This document shows positions 15,569 through 45,491 of a stretch of 64,000 nucleotides of DNA, in pieces (positions within the stretch are counted from its first letter, which is position 1; the number at the start of each line of letters is the position of its first letter). A program made the translations under genes and the position numbers. Under the pieces are notes generated by a model, which searched no databases, had not been told where the DNA came from, and saw only the letters and a program-made list of their open reading frames with translations. This DNA comes from an uncultured Anaeroplasmataceae bacterium (GTDB lineage Bacteria; Bacillota_I; Bacilli_A; Acholeplasmatales; Anaeroplasmataceae). Location: the NCBI GenBank assembly GCA_944325035.1, contig CALUYM010000003.1:1-64000 (forward strand), written 5' to 3'.

Positions 15569-16531
15569 ATGTTTGAAAATTTATTAAATAAGATACGAGA
15601 ATATAATACAATTATAATTCATCGTCATTCTAGACCAGATGGAGATGCCCTTGGTTCGCAATTTGGTCTATATTGTGCACTTAAGCATAATTTTCCAGAA
15701 AAAACAATATTAACAGTCGGAGATATCAATCCAAGATTAACATTCATCGGAACTCTAACAGGAGCAAATGATGAAGACTATAAAGATGCATTAGCAATTA
15801 TTTGTGATGTAGCAGTGAGTACAATGGTTTCAGATGATAGATACAAACTTGCTAAAGAAGTTTATATTATTGATCATCACACCAACACCACTGATATAGA
15901 AGGAGCTATAACTATCATAGATTCTTCGCGTGCTAGTTGTGCTGATTTTGTAGCACACTTTTTATATAGCTATAAGTTAGAAATAAATGAAAAAGCTGCT
16001 ACAGCTTTATATACAGGACTTGTAACTGATAGTGGTCGTTTCCAATATCCAGGTACAAACTCAGAAACACTTTTAATAGCTTCTAAATTACTAGGAAGTG
16101 GTGCCAAAGCTCAATCAATTTTTGATAAGTTATACGTCGAAACACTTGAGTCAAAACAACTTAAAGCTACATTTACAAATCGTATGCAACTAACTAAAAA
16201 TAACGTTGCATATATGGTTAATACTCTAGATGATTTAGCTAAATATAACATTAGCTTTAATGATTGTAGTCGCGGAATGGTAGGCGTAATGTCTGGTATC
16301 GAAGGAATTAATATTTGGGCTAATTTTACATTTGATGCTGAAAAAGGTAAATATGTTGGAGAATTTAGAAGTAGAGGTATTACGATAGTCGATATTGCTA
16401 AAAAGTATGGTGGCGGAGGTCACGACCAAGCATGTGGTGCTACTTTAGAATCACCAGATTTAATTAATTTAATTCTTGCGGATTTTGATAAACGAATGGA
16501 GGAGTATTTAAATGGAACACATTCTAGCTAA
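15569..16531 (+). CDS. DHH phosphoesterase, NrnA-type oligoribonuclease/pAp phosphatase (copy 1)
   Basis: A 320-residue cytoplasmic DHH/DHHA1 protein. Motif I HRHSRPDGDALGS covers residues 18-30, the DHH triad is at 102-104, and the DHHA1 substrate loop GGGGHDQACGA is near 283-293. Members of this family (NrnA) finish RNA turnover by removing nucleotides from very short oligomers and dephosphorylate 3'-phosphoadenosine 5'-phosphate. The length is normal. It overlaps the next, homologous gene by 20 bases. Coming right after two surface nucleases, it could also process imported oligonucleotides. Confidence 0.88.
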   Translation: MFENLLNKIREYNTIIIHRHSRPDGDALGSQFGLYCALKHNFPEKTILTVGDINPRLTFIGTLTGANDEDYKDALAIICDVAVSTMVSDDRYKLAKEVYIIDHHTNTTDIEGAITIIDSSRASCADFVAHFLYSYKLEINEKAATALYTGLVTDSGRFQYPGTNSETLLIASKLLGSGAKAQSIFDKLYVETLESKQLKATFTNRMQLTKNNVAYMVNTLDDLAKYNISFNDCSRGMVGVMSGIEGINIWANFTFDAEKGKYVGEFRSRGITIVDIAKKYGGGGHDQACGATLESPDLINLILADFDKRMEEYLNGTHSS

Positions 16532-17447
16532 AATTAAAGAATATAATACAATTATTATTCATGGACATATTCGTCCAGATGGAGATTGTTATGGTAGTCA
16601 ATTTGGACTTCAAAGAGCTATTCAAGCTACATATCCTGATAAACAAGTTTATGTTGTAGGTGGAGAGTGTGATTACTGCAAATTTTTAGGCAACATGGAT
16701 GTAATATCTGATGATGTATTTGAAGGTGCATTATCAATTTGTGTTGACTGTGCAAATGGAGATCGTTTAAGTGATCAAAGATTTAAATTAGCGGAATATG
16801 TAATAAAAATTGATCATCATATTGCTGATTGTACATATGGAGATTATCAGTATGTAGAAGAAGGAGCAGCAAGCTGTACTCAAGTTATTACAGATTTAAT
16901 TATCAAAGGAAACTTAGTTATGACTAAAGAGGCTGCTTTTGCTTTATATACAGGTATTGTAACTGATACAGGACGATTCAGATTTGATAGTGTTAATTCT
17001 CACACTATGCAAGTTGCTGGTTATTTATTAGATCATGGAGTAAATCCTGCTGAATTAGATAATTTATTATCAGTTGATTCTTTAGCAACTCTAAAACTAA
17101 AAGGGTATGTTCTTTCTAACTTTGTTGTTAAAGAAGGCTTTGCATATATTAAAATGACAAGAGATGTTATTGAACAATTTGGAGTATCTGATGAAGAGGC
17201 AGCTAACCAAGTATCTACAATTTCAACGATTGAAGGTTGTCCAGTTTGGGCATTATTTATGGAATATCCTGGTAATGAAATAAGAATTCGTCTAAGAAGT
17301 AGAGGTCCAGCTGTTAATGAATTAGCTAATCGTTATGGAGGCGGAGGTCATTCTAAGGCTTGTGGTGCAAGTTTAAAGTCTTGGGATGATTTAGATAAAT
17401 TTGTGGACGAAGCGGTTGCTTTGGTTAAAGAATTTAATGAAAATTAA
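16512..17447 (+). CDS. DHH phosphoesterase, NrnA-type (copy 2)
   Basis: A 311-residue paralogue of the preceding gene with the same architecture: HGHIRPDGD at residues 17-25, the IDHH motif near 102 and GGGGHSKACGA near 277. A GGAGGAG ribosome site eight bases before the ATG lies inside the end of copy 1, so the two are translationally coupled. The copies differ at many positions, so this is an old duplication with probable division of labour (for example oligo-RNA versus pAp or cyclic-dinucleotide products). Confidence 0.88.
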   Translation: MEHILAKIKEYNTIIIHGHIRPDGDCYGSQFGLQRAIQATYPDKQVYVVGGECDYCKFLGNMDVISDDVFEGALSICVDCANGDRLSDQRFKLAEYVIKIDHHIADCTYGDYQYVEEGAASCTQVITDLIIKGNLVMTKEAAFALYTGIVTDTGRFRFDSVNSHTMQVAGYLLDHGVNPAELDNLLSVDSLATLKLKGYVLSNFVVKEGFAYIKMTRDVIEQFGVSDEEAANQVSTISTIEGCPVWALFMEYPGNEIRIRLRSRGPAVNELANRYGGGGHSKACGASLKSWDDLDKFVDEAVALVKEFNEN

Positions 17448-19146: not shown

Positions 19147-19352
19147 TAAATAAGTTTTAGTATATAATTATAAAAAAATGATAATAAAAAGTATTTAAAT
19201 AACAAAAATACATGTACAAGAATAAAATGGTATAGGTTAATTTCTTAAGTATTTTTTTATGTAAAAGGAATAAATTTTAATTTTTATAAAAAAATAAAAA
19301 AACTTCTTGATTTTTTGTTTTCTATCTTGTATAATAAAAAGGCATAAGAAAT

Positions 19353-19428
19353 AGGACTATAGCCAAGCGGTAAGGCAAAGGACTTTGACTCCTTCATTGC
19401 GCTGGTTCGAATCCAGCTAGTCCTGCCA
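19353..19428 (+). tRNA. tRNA-Gln (anticodon UUG)
   Basis: A complete 76-base cloverleaf. The acceptor stem is AGGACTA/TAGTCCT, the anticodon stem-loop is AAGGA-CTTTGAC-TCCTT with UUG at 19385-19387, and the T-loop is GGTTCGAATCC. The 3' CCA is encoded at 19426-19428. An integrase gene begins about 120 bases downstream, making this gene a likely integration site. Confidence 0.97.
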
Positions 19429-19547
19429 TTATTTGAAATATAATTCAATAGGAAATTGGTAAATATTGAATTTTATTTAAGTACTACTCGATTAGTACTT
19501 TTTTTATTTAAAATGGTGCGTAAAGGACTGTGTATTAGTCCTTCACG

Positions 19548-20336
19548 TTATAAAGATGATAAAGGATTACACGATATTGATTTTTTCTTTAGATCATTAT
19601 TATTAACGTGTAAATATCTTTGTGTCATTTGAATACTAGTGTGACCTAATAATTTGGAAACGCTATGTATATCTACACCATTTTTCAATAAATAAGTTGC
19701 ATAAGTGTGTCTTAATTGATGAGAACTGAATTTTTCAAGATTTAGTTCTCTTTTTAATTTATAAAAGATTCTTGTTATTTGATTAGCGATTGTTTCTCTG
19801 TTTAAAACATTACCTATTAAATATTCTTTTTGATTGTTTTGATTTATTAATTTTAATATTAGACCTTTTAGAAAGTCATCAATAAAAATAAATCTTGGAT
19901 TATTTGTTTTTGTAAATTCCAAAAAAATTGAATTTTCTTTAAAGTTAATGTTTTTTACTTTGATATTTGCTAATTCATTTCTTCTAATACCAGTTTGAAT
20001 TGATAATAATATTATTACTTGGTATATTAGAGGTTTTAGTTTTACTGTTTCAATTACTTCATGTAATGTATCTTTATCTACAATTTCGATTTTGGGTTTA
20101 ACTTCACTTAATTTCTTAAATTTGAAATTTTTATGTTCCATTAAATTAAGTTCAATTAAATAATTTATTAATGTTTCAATAGCTTTTATTCTTTTATTTA
20201 TAGTTTTTGGTTTGTTACAACTTTCATAATTAATATATTTTTCTATAGCTAAGTTGTCGATATCATTAAAATAATTGATTTTAATTGATTTGAAAAACGT
20301 ATTTATAAAAAGTATAATAGAGTTAATAAAAAACAT
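19548..20336 (-). CDS. Tyrosine recombinase / integrase
   Basis: A 262-residue site-specific recombinase. A short N-terminal core-binding region covers about residues 20-80 and the catalytic domain 90-245. All catalytic residues are present: Arg118 in TGIRRNEL, Lys143 in the FTKTNNPR hairpin, His206 and Arg209 in HQLRH, His232 in LGHTS and Tyr241 in QRYLH. It lies just past tRNA-Gln and points toward it, the usual arrangement for an element integrated in a tRNA. No structural phage, relaxase or replication genes accompany it. Its first 34 codons are shared with the 480-bp duplicated unit, and a divergent promoter for the small gene lies inside its coding sequence. Confidence 0.9.
   Translation of the reverse strand: MFFINSIILFINTFFKSIKINYFNDIDNLAIEKYINYESCNKPKTINKRIKAIETLINYLIELNLMEHKNFKFKKLSEVKPKIEIVDKDTLHEVIETVKLKPLIYQVIILLSIQTGIRRNELANIKVKNINFKENSIFLEFTKTNNPRFIFIDDFLKGLILKLINQNNQKEYLIGNVLNRETIANQITRIFYKLKRELNLEKFSSHQLRHTYATYLLKNGVDIHSVSKLLGHTSIQMTQRYLHVNNNDLKKKSISCNPLSSL
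20290..20318 (+). promoter_or_regulatory. Promoter of small gene copy 1, inside the integrase gene
   Basis: TTGAAA (20290-20295) and TATAAT (20313-20318) are 17 bases apart on the plus strand. They overlap codons 7-16 of the divergent integrase, so small-gene and integrase expression may interfere. The same pair recurs at 20896-20924. Confidence 0.7.
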
Positions 20337-20350
20337 TAGTTTAAAGAAAG

Positions 20351-20662
20351 ATGGTGCTTATAATGTTAATTTATTGTGATGGTATTAATGATCATATTAT
20401 TAATAATTTAGATGAATTAGTTGAATATATGATGAATTCGGGGCGATTCAATTTTGCATTGACTTATAATATGTTACCTAAAGACTGCTATTATATGTAT
20501 GATTTTTATAAATTAGAAGATGGTAGATTATTAGTAACTGATGATTATGACAATGAGTTTTATTTTTCAACTAATGAAGAATTAAAAAAATATCTTAAAT
20601 CTATTGTATTTGAAGATGGTAGAACTTTAGAAGAATGTATACCGGAAATGTTTTTTATGTAA
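20351..20662 (+). CDS. Small acidic protein of unknown function, copy 1
   Basis: The open frame encodes 103 residues; a second in-frame ATG at 20363 would give 99, starting MLIYCDGIND. Neither start has a strong ribosome site, so the start is open. The protein is rich in Asp, Glu and Tyr, has no membrane segment or signal peptide, and shows alternating charged and aromatic stretches (YDFYKLEDGRLLVTDDYDNE near 50-69). I do not recognise the family. It is divergent from the integrase and followed by its own terminator. An identical copy is at 20957. An immunity, anti-defence or recombination-directionality role is possible but unproven. Confidence 0.7.
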   Translation: MVLIMLIYCDGINDHIINNLDELVEYMMNSGRFNFALTYNMLPKDCYYMYDFYKLEDGRLLVTDDYDNEFYFSTNEELKKYLKSIVFEDGRTLEECIPEMFFM

Positions 20663-20684
20663 AAAATTAATAATAATTTTAATT

Positions 20685-20714
20685 AAGTAATCAATTCTTA
20701 TTGGTTACTTTTTT
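20685..20714 (+). terminator. Intrinsic terminator of small gene copy 1
   Basis: AAGTAATCAA (20685-20694) pairs with TTGGTTACTT (20701-20710), followed by a T-run. The same structure closes copy 2 at 21291-21320. Confidence 0.8.
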
Positions 20715-20808
20715 GTTTTGAATATTAGATGATGTATTTAATGTTCATTATGTTAATAAGTATGATAACTGATTTTGAGTATCCTGTTCTTTTTTAAGAG
20801 GTGATAAG

Positions 20809-20880
20809 ATGGGGCTTAGTGTAACTGATTATGGTCGAAAATATTTTTCTATAGCTAAGTTGTCGATATCATTAAAATAA
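20809..20880 (+). pseudogene. Start of an unknown gene cut off by the duplicated unit
   Basis: An ATG with an AAGAGGTG ribosome site seven bases before it opens a 23-codon frame. The first ten or so codons (MGLSVTDYGRK) are unique sequence; from 20841 the frame runs into the antisense of the duplicated integrase start and stops. This looks like the 5' end of a gene truncated when the repeat was inserted. Confidence 0.45.
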
Positions 20881-21320
20881 TTGATTTTAATTGATTTGAA
20901 AAACGTATTTATAAAAAGTATAATAGAGTTAATAAAAAACATTAGTTTAAAGAAAGATGGTGCTTATAATGTTAATTTATTGTGATGGTATTAATGATCA
21001 TATTATTAATAATTTAGATGAATTAGTTGAATATATGATGAATTCGGGGCGATTCAATTTTGCATTGACTTATAATATGTTACCTAAAGACTGCTATTAT
21101 ATGTATGATTTTTATAAATTAGAAGATGGTAGATTATTAGTAACTGATGATTATGACAATGAGTTTTATTTTTCAACTAATGAAGAATTAAAAAAATATC
21201 TTAAATCTATTGTATTTGAAGATGGTAGAACTTTAGAAGAATGTATACCGGAAATGTTTTTTATGTAAAAAATTAATAATAATTTTAATTAAGTAATCAA
21301 TTTTTATTGGTTACTTTTTT
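20841..21320 (+). repeat. 480-bp direct repeat, copy 2
   Basis: This is the second copy of the unit at 20235-20714. It carries the antisense of the first 34 integrase codons (20841-20942) but not the rest of the integrase, then the complete small gene and its terminator. It is therefore a partial tandem copy of the integrase-linked module. Confidence 0.95.
20957..21268 (+). CDS. Small acidic protein of unknown function, copy 2
   Basis: The 103-residue product is identical in sequence to the one at 20351, and the upstream promoter (20896-20924) and downstream terminator (21291-21320) are also the same. Both copies should be expressed equally, so the duplication doubles gene dosage. Only the neighbourhood differs: copy 2 lacks an intact divergent integrase. 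Its function is not recognised. Confidence 0.7.
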   Translation: MVLIMLIYCDGINDHIINNLDELVEYMMNSGRFNFALTYNMLPKDCYYMYDFYKLEDGRLLVTDDYDNEFYFSTNEELKKYLKSIVFEDGRTLEECIPEMFFM

Positions 21321-21439
21321 ATTTTAAAAAAAGATGGATCAATATGGATATAAATTTAATTTATAAGATTATTAAACAATATGATGTTTTTAATAATTAT
21401 AGTCGTGTCATTATTTGAATTAAATTTATATAATAAACC

Positions 21440-21485
21440 AATAACGTTATTAATTAGGGTGAAAATTCTAAACAATAACGTTATT
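21440..21485. repeat. Two copies of the palindrome AATAACGTTATT
   Basis: The perfect 12-bp palindrome occurs at 21440-21451 and 21474-21485, 34 bases apart. As direct copies that are also self-complementary they could form one long hairpin followed by a T-rich run (terminator-like) or act as paired binding sites for a dimeric protein, for example a recombinase accessory factor. Confidence 0.7.
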
Positions 21486-21508
21486 TTTTATTTCATTAAA
21501 TTCTTAAA

Positions 21509-21520
21509 AATGGCAGGACT
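21509..21520 (-). other. Inverted 12-bp copy of the tRNA-Gln 3' end, possible attachment site
   Basis: AATGGCAGGACT here is the reverse complement of 19419-19430, the last ten bases of tRNA-Gln plus two. The two copies bracket the integrase and duplicated small genes in inverted, not direct, orientation. An integrase acting on such sites would invert rather than excise the segment, or this may be a scar of another tRNA-derived site. Confidence 0.4.
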
Positions 21521-21760
21521 GCATAGCTATAGATAAATTCGGATAATGAGATAAAAAACTTAATATAGCGTGTTTTTTAAGGATGTTCTTATAAATATAT
21601 ATATATAGTTTTACTACGTTCCTGTTAAGTATAAGAAAGCTTTGGCTTTATAGCTAGATTATTTTATTTAATATGCAATAAACGTATAACAATCTATAAA
21701 TTAAAGGTATTAGACATCATAAAATATAAGTTTTAAAATTATATTGAGGAGGAATTTAAA

Positions 21761-22333
21761 GTGGATACAAGAGAATTTCTTTCTTATGTAAATCAAAATC
21801 AATATATACAATCAGATTCAGAATGTAAAAGAAAAATGACAAAGCTAGCTACAGAGGCTAGAAAAATTACATCGGAGTTGAATAATAAGTTTTTAGAAAT
21901 GAATGAAATTCAAAAATTATTTTCTAAATTAATCGGTAGCGAGGTTGATAAAACATTTTGTCTTTTCCCGCCGTTTTATACTGATTGTGGAAAAAATATT
22001 CATTTAGGAAAAAATGTATTCATTAATTCTGGTTGTGCTTTTCAAGATCAAGGAGGTATTTGGCTTGGAAATGATGTATTTATTGGACATCAAGTAGTGT
22101 TAGCAACTCTAAATCACGATATTAATCCTAAAAATCGCAAATCACTAGTAGCTAAACCAATTGTGATAGAAGATAATGTTTGGATTGGTGCGCATTCTAC
22201 TATCTTGTCAGGAGTTAAAATAGGAAAAAATGCGATTGTCGCAGCCGGCTCAGTTGTGACTAAAGATGTTTTGAAAAATACAATTGTAGGTGGTGTGCCA
22301 GCACGTAAAATTAAAGATATAGGAGAAGAATAA
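21761..22333 (+). CDS. Sugar O-acetyltransferase, maltose/galactoside acetyltransferase family
   Basis: A 190-residue left-handed beta-helix acyltransferase that moves acetyl from acetyl-CoA to a sugar hydroxyl. The N-terminal helical cap (about residues 1-60) is followed by hexapeptide turns; the catalytic His lies in LNHDINP near 128, and the trimer-forming end reads [12 protein letters not shown] and GGVPARKI near 165-185. The start is GTG, fixed by GAGGAGG eight bases upstream. The next gene begins one base after the stop, placing it in an operon with a flavoprotein and an alcohol dehydrogenase. Confidence 0.88.
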
Positions 22334-31054: not shown

Positions 31055-33433
31055 ATGAATAAGGTAAAAAAATGTGTTGCAGTTGCAATAGGTATTTCAA
31101 GTGTTTTGGGAGCTGTATCTTGTGATGATATAAAACAAGTATCGCCTACAATATCTTCTACTCCAGAAGAGTCTACAACTCCTGATACAAAACCATCAAC
31201 GCCAGTTGTTATAAAATTTACTGTTACTTTTAATACTAATAATGGACAAATTGATACGATTGAAGTTGAAGAAGGAAACAAGGTAACAAAGCCAAGTAAT
31301 CCGACTAAAGAAGGATATCAATTTTTAGGTTGGTATGAAGATGAACAATTAGAAAAAGAATATAATTTCGAAAATGCAGTCAACAGTAATATCACACTAT
31401 ACGCAAAATGGGAAAAGTTGGATGTGTATTATAAAGTAACATTTAATACAAACGATGGTAGTAAAATTGAAACGCTTAGTGTCAAGGAAGGAACCAAGAT
31501 AACAAAGCCAAATGATCCGATTAAAGAAGGATATCAATTTTTAGGTTGGTATGAAGATGAACAATTAGAAAAAGAATATAATTTTGAAAGTGCAGTTAAT
31601 AGTAATATCACACTATATGCAAAGTGGGAACAAGTCTTTATAGTTCAGTTTCTATTAGAAAATGGAGATATTTTTTATACAACTACAGTTTTAAAGAACG
31701 AAACTATAACTAAGATTGAAGAGCCAACAAAGGAAAACTATACTTTTGTCGGTTGGTTTGAATCAATTAGTGATGAAACTAGTTTTGACTTTTCATCATC
31801 AATTATAAGTGATTTAAAACTATATGCTAAATTTGTTAGAAATTTTGAAAATTTAGATTTTACACTATCAGGATATAATGAAGGGGCTTCATTAGTATGG
31901 AAGGATGAAAATGCTCAGGTAGATTTAGTTGAATATAAAAAAATAGATGATTCACCCACATATACTTTGGATAAAGAACTAATCCGTAAACTGGATAATG
32001 GTTTATATCGAGCGGATATTATAGGGATAAGTGAAGGAACATATACTGTTACCGTAAAGTCGAAGGATAACACGATATTATATAAAGAAGATGTTATAGT
32101 TAATGCTCATGATCGAAGTGGGTATGCGCATTTTAATACAACGGGAGTTGGAGCTTATAATGATGATGGTACTTTAAAAGAGAACGCTGTTGTTGTTTAT
32201 GTTAGTGAGGAAACTAAAAATACGGTTAAAGCAACAATTGCTGGGAATGAGTATACTGGTTTAGCTCAAATTTTAAAAGCACAAAAAGATAGTAAACTAC
32301 CGCTAAATATTCGTGTCATTGGTAAAATTAACGCAGCCACTTGGACAAAATTAAAATATGAAAAGACATCTGGAAATCTTGATGTTTCTCAAATAATTGG
32401 TTTGAATGGTAAAAAACTTCAAGATTATGTAATAGCTGAGAATTTAAAAGAATTAAATGAAACACAAATTATTGAAAATGGTTTTAATAATTTAGACACA
32501 GATATCCAAAATGGAATTACTAAACTTAATGGTTTAACTAATAAGATTAAATATGATGCTAAGAAAAAAGAATTTGATTCATATTATAATATGTTAGATG
32601 TTAGTGGAGCTAGTAATGTAACATTAGAGGGTATTGGAACTGATGCTATGTTCTATCAATTTGGTTTAACATGGAAAAATTGCAGTAATATTGAAGTTAG
32701 AAATATAACTTTTGATGATTATACAGAAGATGCTTGTAGTTTTGAAGGTTCAGATGAGTCTACTACGATTGAAGGATTTAAAACTGGTCATATTTGGGTT
32801 CATAATAATAGATTTAATGAAGGAAAAAATAATTGGGATGTATGTCCAGAACAAGATAAACTAGAAGGCGATGGAGCAACTGACTTTAAGAGGAATGCAA
32901 ACATTACCTTATCATATAATCATTATTATAAAAACCATAAAACTGGTTTAATTGGTGGTGGCGATACTCAACATACTGCCAATGTTACGTTCCATCATAA
33001 CTTCTATGAAGAGTGTAGTAGTCGTTTACCACTTGGTCGTCAAGCTAATATGCATATGTACAATAACTACTACAAAGGTTCTACAGGTACTAATATGTCA
33101 CTTAGAGGTGGCGCTTATGCCTTTATTGAAGCATGTTATTTTGAATCGGTTAATAATCCAATAGAAGTTAAAGAAAGCAGTTCTTTACCAAAACCAGCTG
33201 CCAAAGTGTATGGAACAATTTTTGATAATTGCACAGGAATCAATCAAGGTGTTATTGTAACTTCAAGAACAGAAGTAATTGAAAATGGAAACATTTATGG
33301 TTCGACATTTGATACTAATTCAAGTATTTTTTATTATGATGATACTAACAATATATCTAAAGTTAAATATTTAACTGATGCAAATCAAGCTAAGATCGAT
33401 TGTATGAATTTAGCGGGAATTTTAAAAAAGTAG
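31055..33433 (+). CDS. Pectate lyase (PL1) lipoprotein with InlB-type beta-grasp repeats
   Basis: A 792-residue surface lipoprotein with lipobox AVSC, Cys at 23, and a Ser/Thr/Pro linker to about residue 50. Three Listeria-Bacteroides (Flg_new) repeats of about 70 residues follow, each ending in LYAKW or similar, with the GWYEDEQ turn; they probably bind cell-surface or plant ligands. A fibronectin-like spacer leads to the PL1 parallel beta-helix (about 350-792). Hallmarks are DYTEDACSFEGSDEST near 555, DGATDFKRNANITLSYNHYY near 607 and HHNFYEECSSRLPLGRQANMHMYNNYY near 648, which supply calcium ligands and the catalytic Arg. It cuts polygalacturonate by beta-elimination outside the cell. Confidence 0.88.
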   Translation: MNKVKKCVAVAIGISSVLGAVSCDDIKQVSPTISSTPEESTTPDTKPSTPVVIKFTVTFNTNNGQIDTIEVEEGNKVTKPSNPTKEGYQFLGWYEDEQLEKEYNFENAVNSNITLYAKWEKLDVYYKVTFNTNDGSKIETLSVKEGTKITKPNDPIKEGYQFLGWYEDEQLEKEYNFESAVNSNITLYAKWEQVFIVQFLLENGDIFYTTTVLKNETITKIEEPTKENYTFVGWFESISDETSFDFSSSIISDLKLYAKFVRNFENLDFTLSGYNEGASLVWKDENAQVDLVEYKKIDDSPTYTLDKELIRKLDNGLYRADIIGISEGTYTVTVKSKDNTILYKEDVIVNAHDRSGYAHFNTTGVGAYNDDGTLKENAVVVYVSEETKNTVKATIAGNEYTGLAQILKAQKDSKLPLNIRVIGKINAATWTKLKYEKTSGNLDVSQIIGLNGKKLQDYVIAENLKELNETQIIENGFNNLDTDIQNGITKLNGLTNKIKYDAKKKEFDSYYNMLDVSGASNVTLEGIGTDAMFYQFGLTWKNCSNIEVRNITFDDYTEDACSFEGSDESTTIEGFKTGHIWVHNNRFNEGKNNWDVCPEQDKLEGDGATDFKRNANITLSYNHYYKNHKTGLIGGGDTQHTANVTFHHNFYEECSSRLPLGRQANMHMYNNYYKGSTGTNMSLRGGAYAFIEACYFESVNNPIEVKESSSLPKPAAKVYGTIFDNCTGINQGVIVTSRTEVIENGNIYGSTFDTNSSIFYYDDTNNISKVKYLTDANQAKIDCMNLAGILKK
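31305..31585 (+). repeat. Nearly identical DNA in adjacent beta-grasp repeats
   Basis: About 60 bases encoding KEGYQFLGWYEDEQLEKEYN occur twice, from 31307 and 31523, 216 bases (72 codons) apart, with no difference over most of their length. Such identity within otherwise diverged repeats points to recent duplication or conversion. Confidence 0.85.
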
Positions 33434-33458
33434 AGCGTTAAATAGATTTAAGTCTATA

Positions 33459-33511
33459 AAAGACCTTATAAAGTAGAGTAAAATTATTAATCTACTTTGT
33501 GAGGTCTTTTT
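33459..33511 (+). terminator. Intrinsic terminator of the first pectate lyase gene
   Basis: A 19-bp stem (33459-33477 with 33491-33509, two G-U pairs) runs into five T residues. It separates the two pectate lyase genes into independent transcripts. Confidence 0.88.
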
Positions 33512-33656
33512 ATGTTTAATATTAAGTTTAAAATTTTTATTTTTATGAAAAAAATGAAATTTTTAAAATATATTTAAAAAAGAAACATTTATTTTATGAA
33601 AACGACACGTAATTGAAACTTAAATAAAAGATTTTAGAAATAAACAAGATAAAAGT

Positions 33657-33685
33657 TTGACAAAATGAAAACGTTTTCATATAAT
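33657..33685 (+). promoter_or_regulatory. Consensus SigA promoter with a perfect cre/LacI-type operator in its spacer
   Basis: TTGACA (33657-33662) and TATAAT (33680-33685) are both perfect and 17 bases apart. The 14-bp palindrome TGAAAACGTTTTCA (33666-33679) fills the spacer up to the -10. It matches the CcpA cre consensus and the operators of other LacI-family regulators with a central CG. A repressor bound here would block RNA polymerase completely. A partial match, TGAAAACG, lies 69 bases upstream at 33597-33604. The start codon at 33710 follows 24 bases later. Confidence 0.88.
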
Positions 33686-33709
33686 ATGTGTAAGAAAAGA
33701 GGGAAAGAA

Positions 33710-36700
33710 ATGTCAAAAAAATTTTTTTATGCCCTAAATGTTTTAGTTTTAGGTTTGGCACTACTGTCTTGTAATCAGGGAGATATTCCAAGTTATAGTG
33801 AAGAACCATCAACAAGTATTCCATTGGAGGATACTTCAAAACTAACACCAAGTGGCAGCTATGAAAGTAGTACAACCGATGGCATAATAGTAGAAACTGG
33901 TAATATCGAAAATTTAGAAGTAAATGGTACTTATGAAGGAGCATTTTTAAAATGGACTATGCAAGAAAATTATGATTATCGGATTTATTATAAAGAATCC
34001 GAGGCAAGTACTTACAATTTATTAGATTCAATGTTAGTAAGACAAATTGATCAAACATCTATGCGTGCTGATTTATTAGGTTTAAAGGGAAGAGAAGATT
34101 ATGATATTAAAGTAGTACCTGTCTATAATAATCAAGAATTAACCAAGGGAGAATCTTTGACGAAAATTACTACTATCTCTTATGATAGAAGTGGGTACGC
34201 ACACTTCAATTATACTGAAGGAGTTGGTGCCTATAATGATGATGGGACATTAAAAGATAATGCTTATGTCATTTACGTAACGGATGATAATAAAGATGAT
34301 TTGATTGATGACAATCCGTGGCTTAGTGAATATCTTTTTAATATTCCAGGGAATGATTGGGCTAACAAGGAAGCTAGGGGAATCGGTTGGCTGTTAAATA
34401 ATACTCAGTACTCTAAAGCTGAAAGAAATTCGAGTGGAACTATTAATGTTTCAAAATCAAGTAATACTTATTCACCTGATGGTGCAAATTTAGGTTTAAT
34501 TAAACCAAACCAAGATCATCCAATTGCGATTAGATTTATTGGTACAGTTACATCACCTGAGGGTCTAACTGCATATAATTCAGTTAATGAAGGTGGTACT
34601 GTTGGTGATAATGGCCATATGGCAAGAATGAAAGATTATAAAAATATTACTATTGAGGGAGTTGGTGATGATGCGATTATTGAAGGTTGGGGTTTTCATT
34701 TTATTGCATCTAACCCAAGCGTTGGTGGTTATAATTTTGAAGCTAGAAATTTAACATTAAAAAACTACCCAGAGGATGCTCTTGGCATGGAAGGTAGTCA
34801 AGAAGGCAATACGATTACATCACCGGTTAGAAATTGTTTTGTTCATCATAATACTTTCTTACCAGGTTATTCAAGTAACCCTGCTGAAAGTGATAAAGCT
34901 GAAGGTGATGGTAGCTGTGATTTCAAACGAGGATATGCTTTTACAATGTCATATAATTATTATGAGTATTGTCATAAAACAAATCTAGTTGGTTCGAGTG
35001 ATTCAAGTTTGCAATATGATATCTCTTTTCATCACAATATCTGGTATCAATGTGGTTCAAGAATGCCACTTTTAAGACGTGCGAATATTCATTTTTATAA
35101 TAATTATATATTAGGTGACGTTACAAGTGGTGGCGTATTGAGCTACGTAACATCACTTCGAGCTAATGCATATATGTTTGCTGAAAACAATTATTATGAT
35201 GGGGCTAAACAAGTCTTTATTGATAATGGTAGCGGTGGAAGAGCTAAAGCACTTGGTAATGTTTATGTATCTTGTTTTAATAACCCAACTGGAGTAACTG
35301 AAGTTGTAGATCGTTTAGCCAAGGTAGAAAATAACTGTGCATACTTAGATAAAGATTATTCTAATTTTGATACTAATAAAGATTTATTTTATTTTGATGA
35401 AAATAAAGGTCAAAGTAATTGTTATTTAACAGATGCAGTTAAAGCTCGTGAGGAATGCATTTTAAATAGTGGTTCTAGTTATCGTTATTTAAAAAATCAA
35501 ACAAGTCTAAAAACTGATACAGTTAGTTATAATGTTAAGACACCAAGTAAGCCTATTAATTTAGATTCAGTTTTCAATGCAACTTTTCCAACAACTAAGG
35601 GAGATGCAGAGGTTGATAATATTTTATATACTAATCTAACATCAGCTTCCAATGGTATTATTAAATTTAAAAATCAAGGAGTAACATTTAAAGTTGACAC
35701 AAAAGTTTTAGTAACAATCAATTTCACATCAGCAAACAATTATGGCTATGGTGAGGGATTCTTAGTTTCTCAAAATGGAAAAGTTTATTTAAATGGTAGT
35801 GGGGAAGTTATCCTTGAAAAAGGTATTTATGTTTTAAGTTCTGTTAGAAAAGACGGTGAAACAAGTCTTTCTCAATTAAAAATTGAAGTTGTAAATCAAG
35901 AAGAATTAGAAAAGGAACGTCTTGAAGTGGCTAAAGCTGCAATTGATGCTATTCCGGTAGATATTTCATATAATGATCAAGTTAGAAATTTATTATTAAA
36001 TGCTAACAATGCTATCTTAATGCTAACTGAAAGTCAAAAGAAATTAGTAGATATTGAAAAATATAACACAAGTTATACTAAATATATTTCTTTAGGCACT
36101 AGCTATGTGGAAAACTTAATTACATTTATCGGTAAAGTTGATGAAAATAGTGGAGAAAAAATAAATGCTGCATTAAGTGCTTATGATGATTTAATTTCAT
36201 TTAATGCTAGCATTGTAATTGCTAATAAAGATGTATTGGATGCAGCGATTTTATCTTATCAAAATTTAGCAGTTGATGCTTGTATTAAGTTTATTGATGA
36301 AATTGGTGAAGTAACAATGCAAAAAGAAATGTTAATTCAAAAAGCGTTAAATGCTTATAATAGTTTAACTGATATTCAGAAAAAACAAATTACAAATTAT
36401 CAAGTCTTAATATCAGCTAAAGATAGACTGGAAGTTTTAAAACAAATTGAAGAAGTTAAGCTTTTATATAAAAATGTCGATATTAATGATTTAAAGTCAT
36501 TAGAAACATTAGTTGATGCTTATTTAGAACTAACTGAGTTAGCAAAGCTTGAGGCAAATTTAGATTTGACAGATATATATATTAAGTACACAATTTCATT
36601 AATTGATACTATCCAGGACGTAACAATTGATGATAAAAACGTGATTTTAAAAGCTCAAATGATTTATGAATTGATTTCTGAAGGGCGTCAAGTTGAAGTT

Positions 36701-37108
36701 TCTAATTATTCTACTTTAGTTTCTGCCAATGAAATTTTAGCAGGACTTTTAAATCAAAGTAGAGAATGTGATTTCCAAACAAAAGCGCCATCAAATGATT
36801 TCTTTGTAGTAAGTAAAACATCAGGGAACCCAGGATATAAAACAGGACTAAATGTTACTTATAATGGAAATTCATATACAACAGGTTTAAAAATAGAAAC
36901 GGGTACTAAAATTGAATTTACAATTGCATCTAAAATGATGCTAACTTTAGTAACGGATTCACCATCTAAACGTATTTTGATAAATGGGCAAGTATATACT
37001 GCTGATGCAAGTGGAATTGTAAATGTATTAGTTGATGCCGGAATTAATCAGATTACTAAATCTGATTCAATGAATCTTGTTTATTTATCATTAGTTCCAA
37101 GTAATTAA
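33710..37108 (+). CDS. Large pectate lyase (PL1) lipoprotein with C-terminal helical repeats
   Basis: An 1132-residue surface lipoprotein with lipobox LLSC, Cys at 21. I choose the ATG at 33710, giving a normal signal peptide after AGAGGG; an earlier in-frame ATG overlaps the operator. A fibronectin-like spacer precedes the PL1 domain (about 160-600), with DALGMEGSQEGN, DGSCDFKRGYAFTMSYNYYEYCHKTN and HHNIWYQCGSRMPLLRRANIHFYNNY as calcium- and catalytic-site hallmarks. A beta domain follows, then four helical repeats (about 750-1030) of the YNSLTDIQKKQITNYQVL type, also in the endonuclease at 13855, and a final beta domain. It is homologous to the lyase at 31055 but lacks the beta-grasp repeats. 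Confidence 0.88.
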   Translation: MSKKFFYALNVLVLGLALLSCNQGDIPSYSEEPSTSIPLEDTSKLTPSGSYESSTTDGIIVETGNIENLEVNGTYEGAFLKWTMQENYDYRIYYKESEASTYNLLDSMLVRQIDQTSMRADLLGLKGREDYDIKVVPVYNNQELTKGESLTKITTISYDRSGYAHFNYTEGVGAYNDDGTLKDNAYVIYVTDDNKDDLIDDNPWLSEYLFNIPGNDWANKEARGIGWLLNNTQYSKAERNSSGTINVSKSSNTYSPDGANLGLIKPNQDHPIAIRFIGTVTSPEGLTAYNSVNEGGTVGDNGHMARMKDYKNITIEGVGDDAIIEGWGFHFIASNPSVGGYNFEARNLTLKNYPEDALGMEGSQEGNTITSPVRNCFVHHNTFLPGYSSNPAESDKAEGDGSCDFKRGYAFTMSYNYYEYCHKTNLVGSSDSSLQYDISFHHNIWYQCGSRMPLLRRANIHFYNNYILGDVTSGGVLSYVTSLRANAYMFAENNYYDGAKQVFIDNGSGGRAKALGNVYVSCFNNPTGVTEVVDRLAKVENNCAYLDKDYSNFDTNKDLFYFDENKGQSNCYLTDAVKAREECILNSGSSYRYLKNQTSLKTDTVSYNVKTPSKPINLDSVFNATFPTTKGDAEVDNILYTNLTSASNGIIKFKNQGVTFKVDTKVLVTINFTSANNYGYGEGFLVSQNGKVYLNGSGEVILEKGIYVLSSVRKDGETSLSQLKIEVVNQEELEKERLEVAKAAIDAIPVDISYNDQVRNLLLNANNAILMLTESQKKLVDIEKYNTSYTKYISLGTSYVENLITFIGKVDENSGEKINAALSAYDDLISFNASIVIANKDVLDAAILSYQNLAVDACIKFIDEIGEVTMQKEMLIQKALNAYNSLTDIQKKQITNYQVLISAKDRLEVLKQIEEVKLLYKNVDINDLKSLETLVDAYLELTELAKLEANLDLTDIYIKYTISLIDTIQDVTIDDKNVILKAQMIYELISEGRQVEVSNYSTLVSANEILAGLLNQSRECDFQTKAPSNDFFVVSKTSGNPGYKTGLNVTYNGNSYTTGLKIETGTKIEFTIASKMMLTLVTDSPSKRILINGQVYTADASGIVNVLVDAGINQITKSDSMNLVYLSLVPSN

Positions 37109-37185: not shown

Positions 37186-37363
37186 GATTAATATATAGAG
37201 TAATAAAAATTTTTGACTAAATTAGAGTTATTCTTATCAACTTATAGTTTAAAATAAGATGGTATTTAAACTAGGAGTTGAATAATATAGCATATTACGT
37301 GGATATGGTTTACAAGTGGCTAAAATAAGCTATAATTTAATTAAGTGAAAGAGAGATGGTTTG

Positions 37364-39160
37364 ATGATAAAAACATTAAAAAAGGAATTGGCTGAATTAG
37401 CTCATTCACAATATCGACGTATATTCTTATATTATTTTTTAGTTACAATCTTTGGGGGACTCTTACCAGTTATATTAGTTTTAATGCCACAAATGATAGT
37501 TTCCTATGTGGAAAATCAAGAAAGCTTTAACAAATTAGCAATATTGATTGTCATTTTAACTACAATTGTGGTTGTATTTAGTGGTATTTCTACTTATTTT
37601 AAAAGCGCATCTCAAGCTAATTCGTTAAATTTTAGAACACAAGAATATTTAAGATTGTTAAAGACTTATTTAGCAGTTGATTATGAAAAATTGGAAGATC
37701 CATTGTGGCTTGATTTTCTAGAAGAAAAATGTAGTTGTCTAGATTCGGATAATAGTGGTTATCAAGGAACTCTAAATTATTTAATGAAGCTTTTACCAAG
37801 CTTAGTAACATCTATTTGTTATTTAGTATTTTTAACCATGGTATCACCGATATTGATTTTACTGGTTATTTTTTATGTTATAATCGCTTTTATTAGTAGT
37901 TCTAAAGCACATAATTGTTATTTTAAAAATCGAACTAAAATTTCCCGTTTAAATCGACATGAAAGATATTATTTTAATACAGCTTCTGACTTTAACTATG
38001 CTAAAGATATCAGGTTATTTAATTTAAAAAACGAACTTTTAAGTTTAATTGATTTTGAAATAAGTGGTATTAAAAAAATTTATCGTCAAATCAGTTTTCA
38101 CATGTTTGGTTGGAGTTTGCTTGAAGTATTAGCTATGACTATTTTATTTGGAACATCGATTTATTTTATTATTACAAATTATAGCACCAATCAAAGTCTT
38201 GCGAATATGTTATTTAATATTTTAGTTCTAACAAGTTTGATTAACTTAATATCAAGTAATGCCGAAACAGTTAATTACTTTGTGCGTGGAATTAAAGAAG
38301 TAAAAGACTATTATGAATTTAGAGATAACTTAGAACCTGAATATAGTACGGATAAATTGCATAATATCAATGAGCCTTTAGAAATTGAATTTAAGAATGT
38401 TTCATTTAAATATCCTAATTCTGATAATTATGTTTTACAAAATTTATCTTTTAAAATTAATGCCAAGGAGCGTGTTGCGATTGTCGGAGCTAACGGAGCA
38501 GGTAAAACGACTATTGTTAAGTTAATAACAGGCTTATTTAAGCCGAATGAAGGTTCAATTTTAATTAATGGAATTGATATTAATGATTTTAATTTAAAAG
38601 AGTTATATCAACTTTATGCAGTTGTTTTTCAAGATTTTAATGTCTATGCTTTTTCGATTTTAGAAAATATAAGTTTAAAAGATACTGCTCATTCGAATCG
38701 AGAAAAGATTGTTGATATTTTGAAGCGAGAAGGTTTATATGAAACTATTTCTAATTTGAAACATCAAGAAGATCAAATGATGTTGAAATATATTGATCCT
38801 GAAGGTGTTGAATTTAGTGGTGGTCAGACTCAAAAATTAGCAATTGCTAGAGCTTTATATAAAGAAGGTACAAAGTGTGTTATTTTAGATGAGCCAACAA
38901 GTGCACTTGATGCTTTAGCTGAAGCGGATATTTATCAATCATTTTCTGATTTAGTAAAAGATAAGACAGCTATTTATATTTCTCATCGTATGACGAGTAC
39001 AAAATTTTGTGATAGAATTTTATTATTTGATGAGACAGGCTTAGCTGAGGTTGGTTCCCATGATGAACTTATGAAACTTCAAGGTAAGTATTATGAATTA
39101 TTTAATATTCAAGGAAAGTATTATAAGAAAGGAGGAAATGGTAATGAAGGCCTTCTTTAA
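37364..39160 (+). CDS. ABC exporter half-transporter (pair 1, subunit A)
   Basis: A 598-residue fusion of a six-helix membrane domain (about 1-320) and an ATPase. Walker A GANGAGKTT is near 371, the signature FSGGQTQKLAIARAL near 485, Walker B VILDEPTSALD near 506 and the switch His in SHRMTS near 541. I place the start at the ATG at 37364; an in-frame TTG directly before it is less likely. It overlaps the second subunit by 17 bases, and the two probably form a heterodimer. Both carry a catalytic Glu after Walker B. The substrate is unknown; peptide or lipid export is typical for this architecture. Confidence 0.85.
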   Translation: MIKTLKKELAELAHSQYRRIFLYYFLVTIFGGLLPVILVLMPQMIVSYVENQESFNKLAILIVILTTIVVVFSGISTYFKSASQANSLNFRTQEYLRLLKTYLAVDYEKLEDPLWLDFLEEKCSCLDSDNSGYQGTLNYLMKLLPSLVTSICYLVFLTMVSPILILLVIFYVIIAFISSSKAHNCYFKNRTKISRLNRHERYYFNTASDFNYAKDIRLFNLKNELLSLIDFEISGIKKIYRQISFHMFGWSLLEVLAMTILFGTSIYFIITNYSTNQSLANMLFNILVLTSLINLISSNAETVNYFVRGIKEVKDYYEFRDNLEPEYSTDKLHNINEPLEIEFKNVSFKYPNSDNYVLQNLSFKINAKERVAIVGANGAGKTTIVKLITGLFKPNEGSILINGIDINDFNLKELYQLYAVVFQDFNVYAFSILENISLKDTAHSNREKIVDILKREGLYETISNLKHQEDQMMLKYIDPEGVEFSGGQTQKLAIARALYKEGTKCVILDEPTSALDALAEADIYQSFSDLVKDKTAIYISHRMTSTKFCDRILLFDETGLAEVGSHDELMKLQGKYYELFNIQGKYYKKGGNGNEGLL

Positions 39161-40892
39161 AATAATTAAATTTAGTTTTAAAATCTCTAAAAGTTTTTAT
39201 TTTTATCTTCTTTTAAGTATTATAATTTATAGTGCCAAAGCCTTACTTTTAGTGTATACACCTACTATTTTACTTAGTGCATTAGAAAGAGGTGTTTTAT
39301 TTAAAGAAGTAGTGCTAATCGGACTAAGTTTAGTGATTATTAATGCATTAGTCCAAATTATTTCTAATCTATTACAAAATTTAATTTCTTATAAACGAAA
39401 ATATATTTCTTTAATGTATGATCATTTAATGGCAGATAAAGTAATGTCTCTTAGTTACGAAAAACTTGAAGATCCAGAAGTTCTTGATTTAAAAGAACGT
39501 GCAGTATTTGCTGTAAAAAATCAAGGAAGTTTTGAGTCTTTATTAATTGTAATGGTATCAAGTATTCAAAGTTTAGCAACGCTAATTACTTTAATCGGTA
39601 TTATGACTCAACTTGGATATGTTTTAATTTTATTAGTATTAGGCTATTTAATAATTTATATTATTCTAACTTTAATTATTTATAAAATCCAACGCAATTT
39701 CTTTGTAAGTTTAATTCCAGTTAATCGAAAATTTGGTTATTATGTTTCAACATTAACAGATCCTAAAAATGCAAAAGATTATCGTTTATATAATGCAGAT
39801 GAACTGGTGATGAAACATCTTACTAAATTTCAACAAGAGATAGCTGATGAATTTTCAATGTTTTATCGCAAGTCTGGGTTATTTAGCGCCATTATTGAAT
39901 CGATAAGAGGCCTTATTCAAGGTGGTATCTATTTTTATGTCGCTTTTCGTTTATATAAACAGTTGATAAAGGCTTCCTCTTTTTCTTTATTTGCATCATC
40001 AGCTATTTCTTTTTTAACCGAAGTTCAAACGTTAATTTTTAACATTGTTGATTTCAACCGCTACTTATACTATGTAATGCCATTCATGGAAATTCTATCC
40101 ATGCCTGATGCGGCAGAAGAAGGAAGTATTATCCTTGATAAAGAAATAGAAGAATTAGAATTTAGAAATGTATCATTTAAATATCCTCGCCAAGACAATT
40201 TAGTTTTAGATGATATCAGTTTTAAAATTAACAAAGGTGAGCTAATTTCATTAGTTGGATTAAATGGAGCTGGAAAAACTACCATTATTAAATTAATTTG
40301 TCGCTTATATAAACCAATTTCTGGTGAAATATATATTAATAACATTAACATTAATGATTATGAATTAACATCATATAATAAGCATATTTCTTGTGTTTTT
40401 CAAGATTATAAACTTTTTGGTTATTCTATTGCCAAGAATATTACAGGGCAAGATGAAAATAGCGATAAAGCGTATAATCTATTAGAGGATTTAGGTTTAA
40501 AAGATAAAATTGATAGTTTGGAAAATGGAATTGAAACGGTACTAAATAAACAATTGTCTGAAGATGCGACTAACTTTAGTGGTGGACAGGAACAAAAAAT
40601 TGCCATTGCTAGGGCATTGTATAAAAATTCCGACTTTGTTATCTTAGATGAACCAACAAGTGCGCTTGACCCAAAGAGTGAAGCGGAAATTTATGAGAAC
40701 TTTAATGTTTTAACAAAAGGAAAAACGGCAATCTATGTTTCACACAGAATGTCATCATCTACATTTTGTGATAAGATTTTAGTAATTGAAAATGGTAAGG
40801 TTGTGGCTTTTGATAGTCATCAAAATTTAATGAAAAAAGGTGGTTTATATCAAAAGTTATTTGAAACACAAGCTAAAAACTATGAGTGTTAA
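39144..40892 (+). CDS. ABC exporter half-transporter (pair 1, subunit B)
   Basis: A 582-residue membrane-ATPase fusion homologous to subunit A. Walker A GLNGAGKTT is near 375, the signature FSGGQEQKIAIARAL near 478, Walker B VILDEPTSALD near 499. The ATG at 39144 has AAAGGAGG eight bases upstream; an earlier ATG at 39138 is only two bases from that site, and longer forms have no ribosome site. The start lies inside the end of subunit A, indicating translational coupling. A terminator follows closely, so the pair forms its own two-gene operon. Confidence 0.85.
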   Translation: MKAFFKIIKFSFKISKSFYFYLLLSIIIYSAKALLLVYTPTILLSALERGVLFKEVVLIGLSLVIINALVQIISNLLQNLISYKRKYISLMYDHLMADKVMSLSYEKLEDPEVLDLKERAVFAVKNQGSFESLLIVMVSSIQSLATLITLIGIMTQLGYVLILLVLGYLIIYIILTLIIYKIQRNFFVSLIPVNRKFGYYVSTLTDPKNAKDYRLYNADELVMKHLTKFQQEIADEFSMFYRKSGLFSAIIESIRGLIQGGIYFYVAFRLYKQLIKASSFSLFASSAISFLTEVQTLIFNIVDFNRYLYYVMPFMEILSMPDAAEEGSIILDKEIEELEFRNVSFKYPRQDNLVLDDISFKINKGELISLVGLNGAGKTTIIKLICRLYKPISGEIYINNININDYELTSYNKHISCVFQDYKLFGYSIAKNITGQDENSDKAYNLLEDLGLKDKIDSLENGIETVLNKQLSEDATNFSGGQEQKIAIARALYKNSDFVILDEPTSALDPKSEAEIYENFNVLTKGKTAIYVSHRMSSSTFCDKILVIENGKVVAFDSHQNLMKKGGLYQKLFETQAKNYEC

Positions 40893-45139: not shown

Positions 45140-45491
45140 AAAATGTTGATTTTTTGATTATGGCTGGTGGAAGTGGAGAGATGTTTTGGCCACTTTTGAC
45201 TAAAAAAAGCCAAAAATATAGTTGTAATACCTGTTTCATTTGGTTGGAATGATGTCGGAAATTTTATAGCTTTGATGAACTTTTTGATAAAGATGGAAAT
45301 GAAAATGTTGTTAACAAATCTAGAGTTATAAGCGTTGATTCACCAAATAACGTTATTATTTCAGATGTAAAAAACAGCGATTTTCATTATTAGGAGTAAA
45401 AGATATGATAGTTGTTATAACTAAAGATAAAATACTAATATGTAATAAAAAAAATAGCCAGGATATAAAAAAGATTATTGCTAAGATATGA
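45140..45491 (+). pseudogene. Decayed mannose-1-phosphate guanylyltransferase (ManC)
   Basis: Two pieces of a ManC-type nucleotidyltransferase remain. From 45147 the text reads DFLIMAGGSGEMFWPL, the nucleotide-binding start of the family. From about 45216 it reads VIPVSFGWNDVGNF, and after a frame change ELFDKDGNENVV through NNVIISD, then GVKDMIVVITKDKILICN, the family's C-terminal end. The middle (about 230 codons) is deleted and at least two frameshifts separate the pieces. The remnant's stop overlaps the ATG of the next gene in an ATGA, so the genes were once coupled. Confidence 0.85.

Follow-up and report, generated by a model that had tools for sequence, protein, structure and literature searches.

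A probable decaying tRNA-Gln island with a duplicated orphan gene in an uncultured Anaeroplasmataceae bacterium

A genomic island integrated into a tRNA gene is defined, in the scheme of Islander (PMC4383910), by a regenerated tRNA gene at one end and the displaced 3′ fragment of that gene at the other. The DNA analyzed here, a window of 64,000 nucleotides from an uncultured Anaeroplasmataceae bacterium, contains at the 3′ end of a tRNA-Gln gene a segment of 1,982 bp that can be read as such an island because the regenerated gene and the displaced fragment match the published signature (Islander, PMC4383910). The tRNA is intact, the displaced fragment lies downstream in the same orientation, and a tyrosine integrase is present between the two. 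In length the segment falls below the 2-200-kb range applied by Islander, the 2-kb minimum being a practical search cut-off and not a biological criterion. No open frame between the attachment (att) sites encodes a relaxase, coupling protein or replication initiator, by which an ICE or mobilizable element would be recognized. The features of the locus are collected in Table 1.

Table 1. Features of the tRNA-Gln island in window coordinates
Feature	Position	Strand	Remarks
tRNA-Gln (TTG), integration target	19353..19428	+	ARAGORN and Rfam RF00005, 65 bits; 3′ end regenerated by island
attL, tRNA-side repeat TAGTCCTGCCATTATTTGAA	19418..19437	+	
Tyrosine integrase, 5′-truncated, 262 codons	19548..20336	-	Pfam PF00589, 7.9e-33
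Repeat copy 1	20235..20714	+	480 bp: 102 bp of integrase, promoter, small gene and terminator
Promoter-like TTGAAA-17-TATAAT, copy 1	20290..20318	+	
Small acidic gene, copy 1	20363..20662	+	99 aa; alternative start 20351 gives 103 aa
Intrinsic terminator, copy 1	20685..20714	+	Loop holds the one difference (20697 C)
Spacer between copies, unique	20715..20840	+	No relatives found within the order
Shine-Dalgarno GAGGTGAT and 5′ part of putative gene X	20798..20841	+	ATG 20809, MGLSVTDYGRK..., interrupted by copy 2
Repeat copy 2	20841..21320	+	TATTTT at 20842-20847 and 21320-21325
Promoter-like TTGAAA-17-TATAAT, copy 2	20896..20924	+	
Small acidic gene, copy 2	20969..21268	+	Protein identical to copy 1
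Intrinsic terminator, copy 2	21291..21320	+	
3′ part of putative gene X	21320..21418	+	In frame once flanks are joined at TATTTT; stop TGA 21416-21418 within attR
attR, displaced tRNA-Gln tail	21400..21419	+	18/20 identical to attL

The tRNA-Gln locus and its truncated integrase

The repeat that bounds the island comprises the final bases of tRNA-Gln and nine bases beyond. Its two occurrences share one orientation and agree at 18 of 20 positions, compared with 0.01 matches expected at three or fewer mismatches in shuffles of the 64 kb. The next best match to attL in the window agrees at 15 of 20 positions, is inverted and lies outside the island. Both substitutions in attR sit in the portion that matches the tRNA tail, as is expected if that end was released from selection. 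As judged from the sequence, these repeats are the signature of an island integrated into a tRNA gene; they were overlooked in a preliminary description of this DNA. The integrase remnant and both copies of a 480-bp repeat lie between the att sites, and the G+C content of the island is 21.5%, compared with 27.8% for the window. The island can be described as a fairly ordinary piece of decaying mobile DNA, and it is probably immobile.

Alignment with full-length relatives of 304-344 residues revealed that the integrase starts ∼65-80 residues late and lacks the beginning of the core-binding domain. The catalytic R, K, HxxR, H and Y motifs are kept (GIRR, TK, HQLRH, GH and QRY, respectively), and no Shine-Dalgarno sequence precedes the ATG. 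The missing N terminus was found neither in the spacer between the repeat copies nor in the rest of positions 19400-21800, where tblastn matches remained at chance level. A 55% integrase match at 20706-20942 was rejected as the duplicated 102-bp fragment with an extension judged to be chance. Searches for close integrase relatives in GTDB and IMG/VR returned only a 44-residue match.

The simplest reading of these observations is that the 5′ truncation would have joined the integrase to the upstream region of the small gene carried by the repeat. With its frame open over 262 codons and all motifs present, the enzyme may still function or may have been inactivated only recently. The promoter of the small gene would lie inside the integrase gene because the integrase is truncated, and the overlap is most simply regarded as a deletion scar rather than an arrangement tying both genes. 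The preliminary description had considered the small gene to be tightly tied to the integrase on account of this overlap. Although the association is real, with the promoter-like site inside the integrase gene, a tight tie does not agree with a 5′-truncated remnant lacking a Shine-Dalgarno sequence.

Two further observations were made just beyond attR. An exact 11-bp inverted tRNA-Gln tail (AGTCCTGCCAT, minus strand) is present at 21510-21520, 90 bp beyond attR (0.02 expected in the window), and may have been left by an earlier attachment event or by an inverted one. In addition, the perfect 12-bp palindrome AATAACGTTATT occurs at 21440-21451 and 21474-21485, 34 bp apart, and again at 45346-45357. 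The first two occurrences lie upstream of acetyltransferase, FMN reductase and alcohol dehydrogenase genes, and the palindrome, for which 0.02 would be expected in the window, looks like the putative operator of a regulator.

The duplicated transcription unit and its protein

The two copies of the 480-bp repeat differ at one position (20697 C versus 21303 T), which falls in the loop of the terminator hairpin, and are spaced 606 bp from start to start. Promoter-like site, open frame and hairpin were found twice and the encoded proteins are identical, which bears out the earlier account of a whole transcription unit duplicated with one base change. Between the copies lie 126 bp of unrelated DNA, for which no relatives were found in the order; unique DNA borders each copy on both sides, and the right flanks differ. 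The layout is int-R-S-R-Y and not R-R (where R is the repeat, S the spacer and Y the right flank), and simple tandem duplication is ruled out by the unique spacer and the differing right flanks. The copy count in related genomes that had been proposed found the unit only twice in this genome and in none of 159 other genomes of the order, and no terminal inverted repeats of the kind that mark a transposon or MITE were reported at its ends. The data support a unit duplicated, or homogenised, recently.

Within the window the 480-bp unit is by far the longest repeat, the only other identical 40-mer pair belonging to a 63-bp repeat at 31306. The latter is a direct repeat, 216 bp apart, in the first of two long adjoining genes (31055-37108; 792 and 1,147 aa) with lipoprotein-like starts. 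Beyond these, the ABC transporter genes at 37361-39160 and 39093-40892 overlap by 68 bp (39093-39160), provided that translation of the second begins at its first ATG.

The two TTGAAA-17-TATAAT sites each score 11/12 and are the top two of positions 19300-21800. Given that promoter-like sites overall are no commoner than in shuffles, their assignment as promoters is plausible but not proven. The preferred start of the small acidic gene is ATG 20363 (99 aa), and the gene is very probably real because an open frame of 99 codons would arise by chance at ∼2e-5 per trial at local composition. The terminator hairpin has an 11-bp stem, a 4-nt loop and a T-run, with folding z values of -2.7 and -3.2 for the two copies, and the base change in its loop should be without consequence. 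Since the single difference lies in this loop, the identity of the two proteins says little about selection and is expected at such divergence.

The 99-residue protein has a pI of 4.17 and a net charge of -12.4. No relatives were found in Pfam, PHROGs, NCBIfam, PADLOC, PDB sequences, phages, plasmids or IMG/VR, nor in GTDB contigs (peptide-pattern scan) or 160 genomes of the order, and the earlier designation as an unknown small acidic protein is thus upheld for the collections searched. Matches at E 0.01-0.05 were short stretches within far longer, unrelated frames, and the PADLOC anti-phage defence profiles gave no match up to E 1. A single-sequence AlphaFold2 model predicted an alpha/beta protein with moderate confidence (pLDDT 73, pTM 0.68). 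Fold searches with this model, likewise proposed in the preliminary description, yielded nothing significant (best Foldseek E 0.08-0.2, TM ∼0.3-0.4), the top Foldseek matches being the immunity pair 9l5u and SAP/EAT2 SH2 domains. A known defence protein, a phage protein and a solved fold were each rejected as the identity of the protein because no matches were obtained. An excisionase, a small basic winged-helix DNA-binding protein, was also rejected given the acidic pI, the lack of a family match and the beta-rich model.

Since tRNA-Gln in related genomes hosts either an integrative element that includes a replication gene or an AbiE island in decay, the small acidic gene is most likely island cargo, and its product would be soluble and constitutively expressed. 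For a small acidic island protein, and with AbiE cargo at the tRNA-Gln gene of a related genome (G030, see below), a role in immunity, inhibition or counter-defence would be the likeliest class by context, but this is a tentative guess.

Origin of the second copy

The spacer ends with a very strong Shine-Dalgarno sequence and an ATG followed by eleven codons, at which point copy 2 begins. The arrangement GAGGTGAT-NNN-ATG (GAGGTGATAAG-ATG) is unique in the window, where 0.04 would be expected. When the flanks of copy 2 are joined at the 6-bp TATTTT, a 43-codon frame (gene X) is open across the join, with 32 codons after the junction, and ends in attR; an in-frame continuation of 32 codons would arise by chance with P ∼0.03. 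As predicted from the joined flanks, an intact X would read MGLSVTDYGRKYFKKRW... (MGLSVTDYGRKYFKKRWINMDINLIYKIIKQYDVFNNYSRVII). No homologues of X were found, matches being at chance level only, and weak matches of X or the spacer at three other loci (L095, L099 and L100) were rejected, as these sit between ordinary genes. The strong start and the open frame across the joined flanks lead us to infer that the island formerly ended with gene X and that copy 2 of the repeat split it, a split that the preliminary description had missed.

TATTTT flanks copy 2 perfectly, whereas copy 1 is flanked by TATTTT and TGTTTT. In DNA this AT-rich, ∼5% of random pairs of 12-bp windows share at least 6 bp, so the match is weak evidence, and the evidence for this part of the explanation is moderate.

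The reading that we consider probable is that of a decaying tRNA-Gln island whose orphan cargo gene was copied once by a microhomology-type event. Here, a tyrosine integrase of the family found at tRNA-Gln in related genomes would have formed the island, of which only a truncated integrase and small cargo genes would afterwards have remained, with a deletion fusing the integrase at approximately codon 65-80 to the unit of the small gene. Later, a copy of the unit would have landed inside X, with TATTTT microhomology on one side and the terminator T-run on the other. This could have occurred in two ways that give the same product. In one, TATTTT in the integrase and TATTTT in X would delimit a 606-bp tandem duplication, from which 126 bp between the T-run and TATTTT were then deleted; in the other, a template switch would lead from X into the repeat and back. 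Copying may have been assisted by the hairpin and T-run with which the repeat ends on its right. The event is best read as one-off and of microhomology type.

The preliminary description had suggested that dosage is under selection or that some process actively copies the unit. Fixation by selection for a double dose of the small protein, for example in immunity or defence, concerns retention of the copies and can be combined with the microhomology reading. It would account for promoter, gene and terminator being whole in both copies and for the identical proteins; however, a recent neutral event would explain a single difference over 480 bp just as well, and only two copies exist, with no array and no relatives that hold more, such that we consider it unlikely.

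Copy 2 starts within integrase sequence, as would be expected had two related islands integrated in tandem at tRNA-Gln and a deletion spared only the 5′ integrase fragment and small gene of the second, and cases of islands arrayed in tandem at a single tRNA gene have been described (Islander, PMC4383910). Such an origin is nevertheless distinctly unlikely: a third tRNA tail is absent between the copies (the 15/20 match being outside and inverted), the near-identity demands two islands that are almost the same and yet differ at their right ends, and the X frame across the join is not predicted. The genome is a draft of 10 contigs, in which two strain variants might have been merged around the shared 480 bp, but the unique flanks of each copy, the one distinguishing base and the coherent X split by copy 2 make an assembly artefact very doubtful.

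Recombination by tyrosine recombinases proceeds through overlaps of some 6-8 bp, and the TATTTT flanks of the copies could suggest that the integrase moves the 480-bp unit as a self-contained active cassette, encoding a protein family without known relative, via 6-bp overlaps into new sites; this is hardly credible given that neither the genome nor its relatives hold further copies, that the ends show no inverted repeats, that the neighbouring integrase is truncated and that so low-complexity a repeat is expected by chance in ∼5% of pairs. Neither dosage nor active copying is thus favored by two copies only, with none in 159 genomes and no terminal inverted repeats, and the junction resembles ordinary microhomology.

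Comparison with known islands and related loci

Relatives of the integrase adjoin tRNAs in other genomes, the tRNA being tRNA-Gln in G003, G004, G009, G018 and G030. Among 30 tRNA-Gln loci read across the family, 24 have DHH phosphohydrolase genes just upstream, and 5, the window locus included, have this type of integrase downstream. In the window, the DHH genes are at 15569-17447 and an amino-acid permease gene intervenes before tRNA-Gln. The family-wide tRNA-Gln site beside the DHH gene pair can be regarded as an integration hotspot, and the orphan genes in islands of this kind merit tests for a part in defence or immunity. The locus also indicates that a recognisable tRNA island can shrink below the cut-off of a standard finder, and its duplication preserves in readable form how a gene is copied at microhomology, with the split neighbour gene as the visible cost. 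Neither the island nor the duplication overturns established knowledge.

In common with Islander islands (PMC4383910), the window island has the tRNA gene regenerated at one end, a co-oriented displaced 3′ fragment opposite and, between the ends, a tyrosine integrase whose 3′ end is beside the tRNA. It differs in being just under 2 kb, in its truncated integrase and in an orphan, duplicated cargo. The G030 island (L087, 11566-15552), which has a 12-bp tRNA tail, shares the tRNA, the upstream DHH-DHH synteny, the integrase family and the decay, its integrase being broken by a stop codon. By contrast, it spans ∼3.9 kb and carries a DUF6088-AbiEii pair, with the toxin gene broken in two, instead of the small acidic gene. 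The G003 integrative element (L084), whose far end was not found, likewise places an integrase relative (39% identical) beside tRNA-Gln, but has far more DNA, with a Rep_trans replication initiator in the DNA neighbouring its integrase and many other genes that the window island is without. Given the large element in G003 and the small islands in G030 and the window, the tRNA-Gln site accepts both large elements and small decaying islands.
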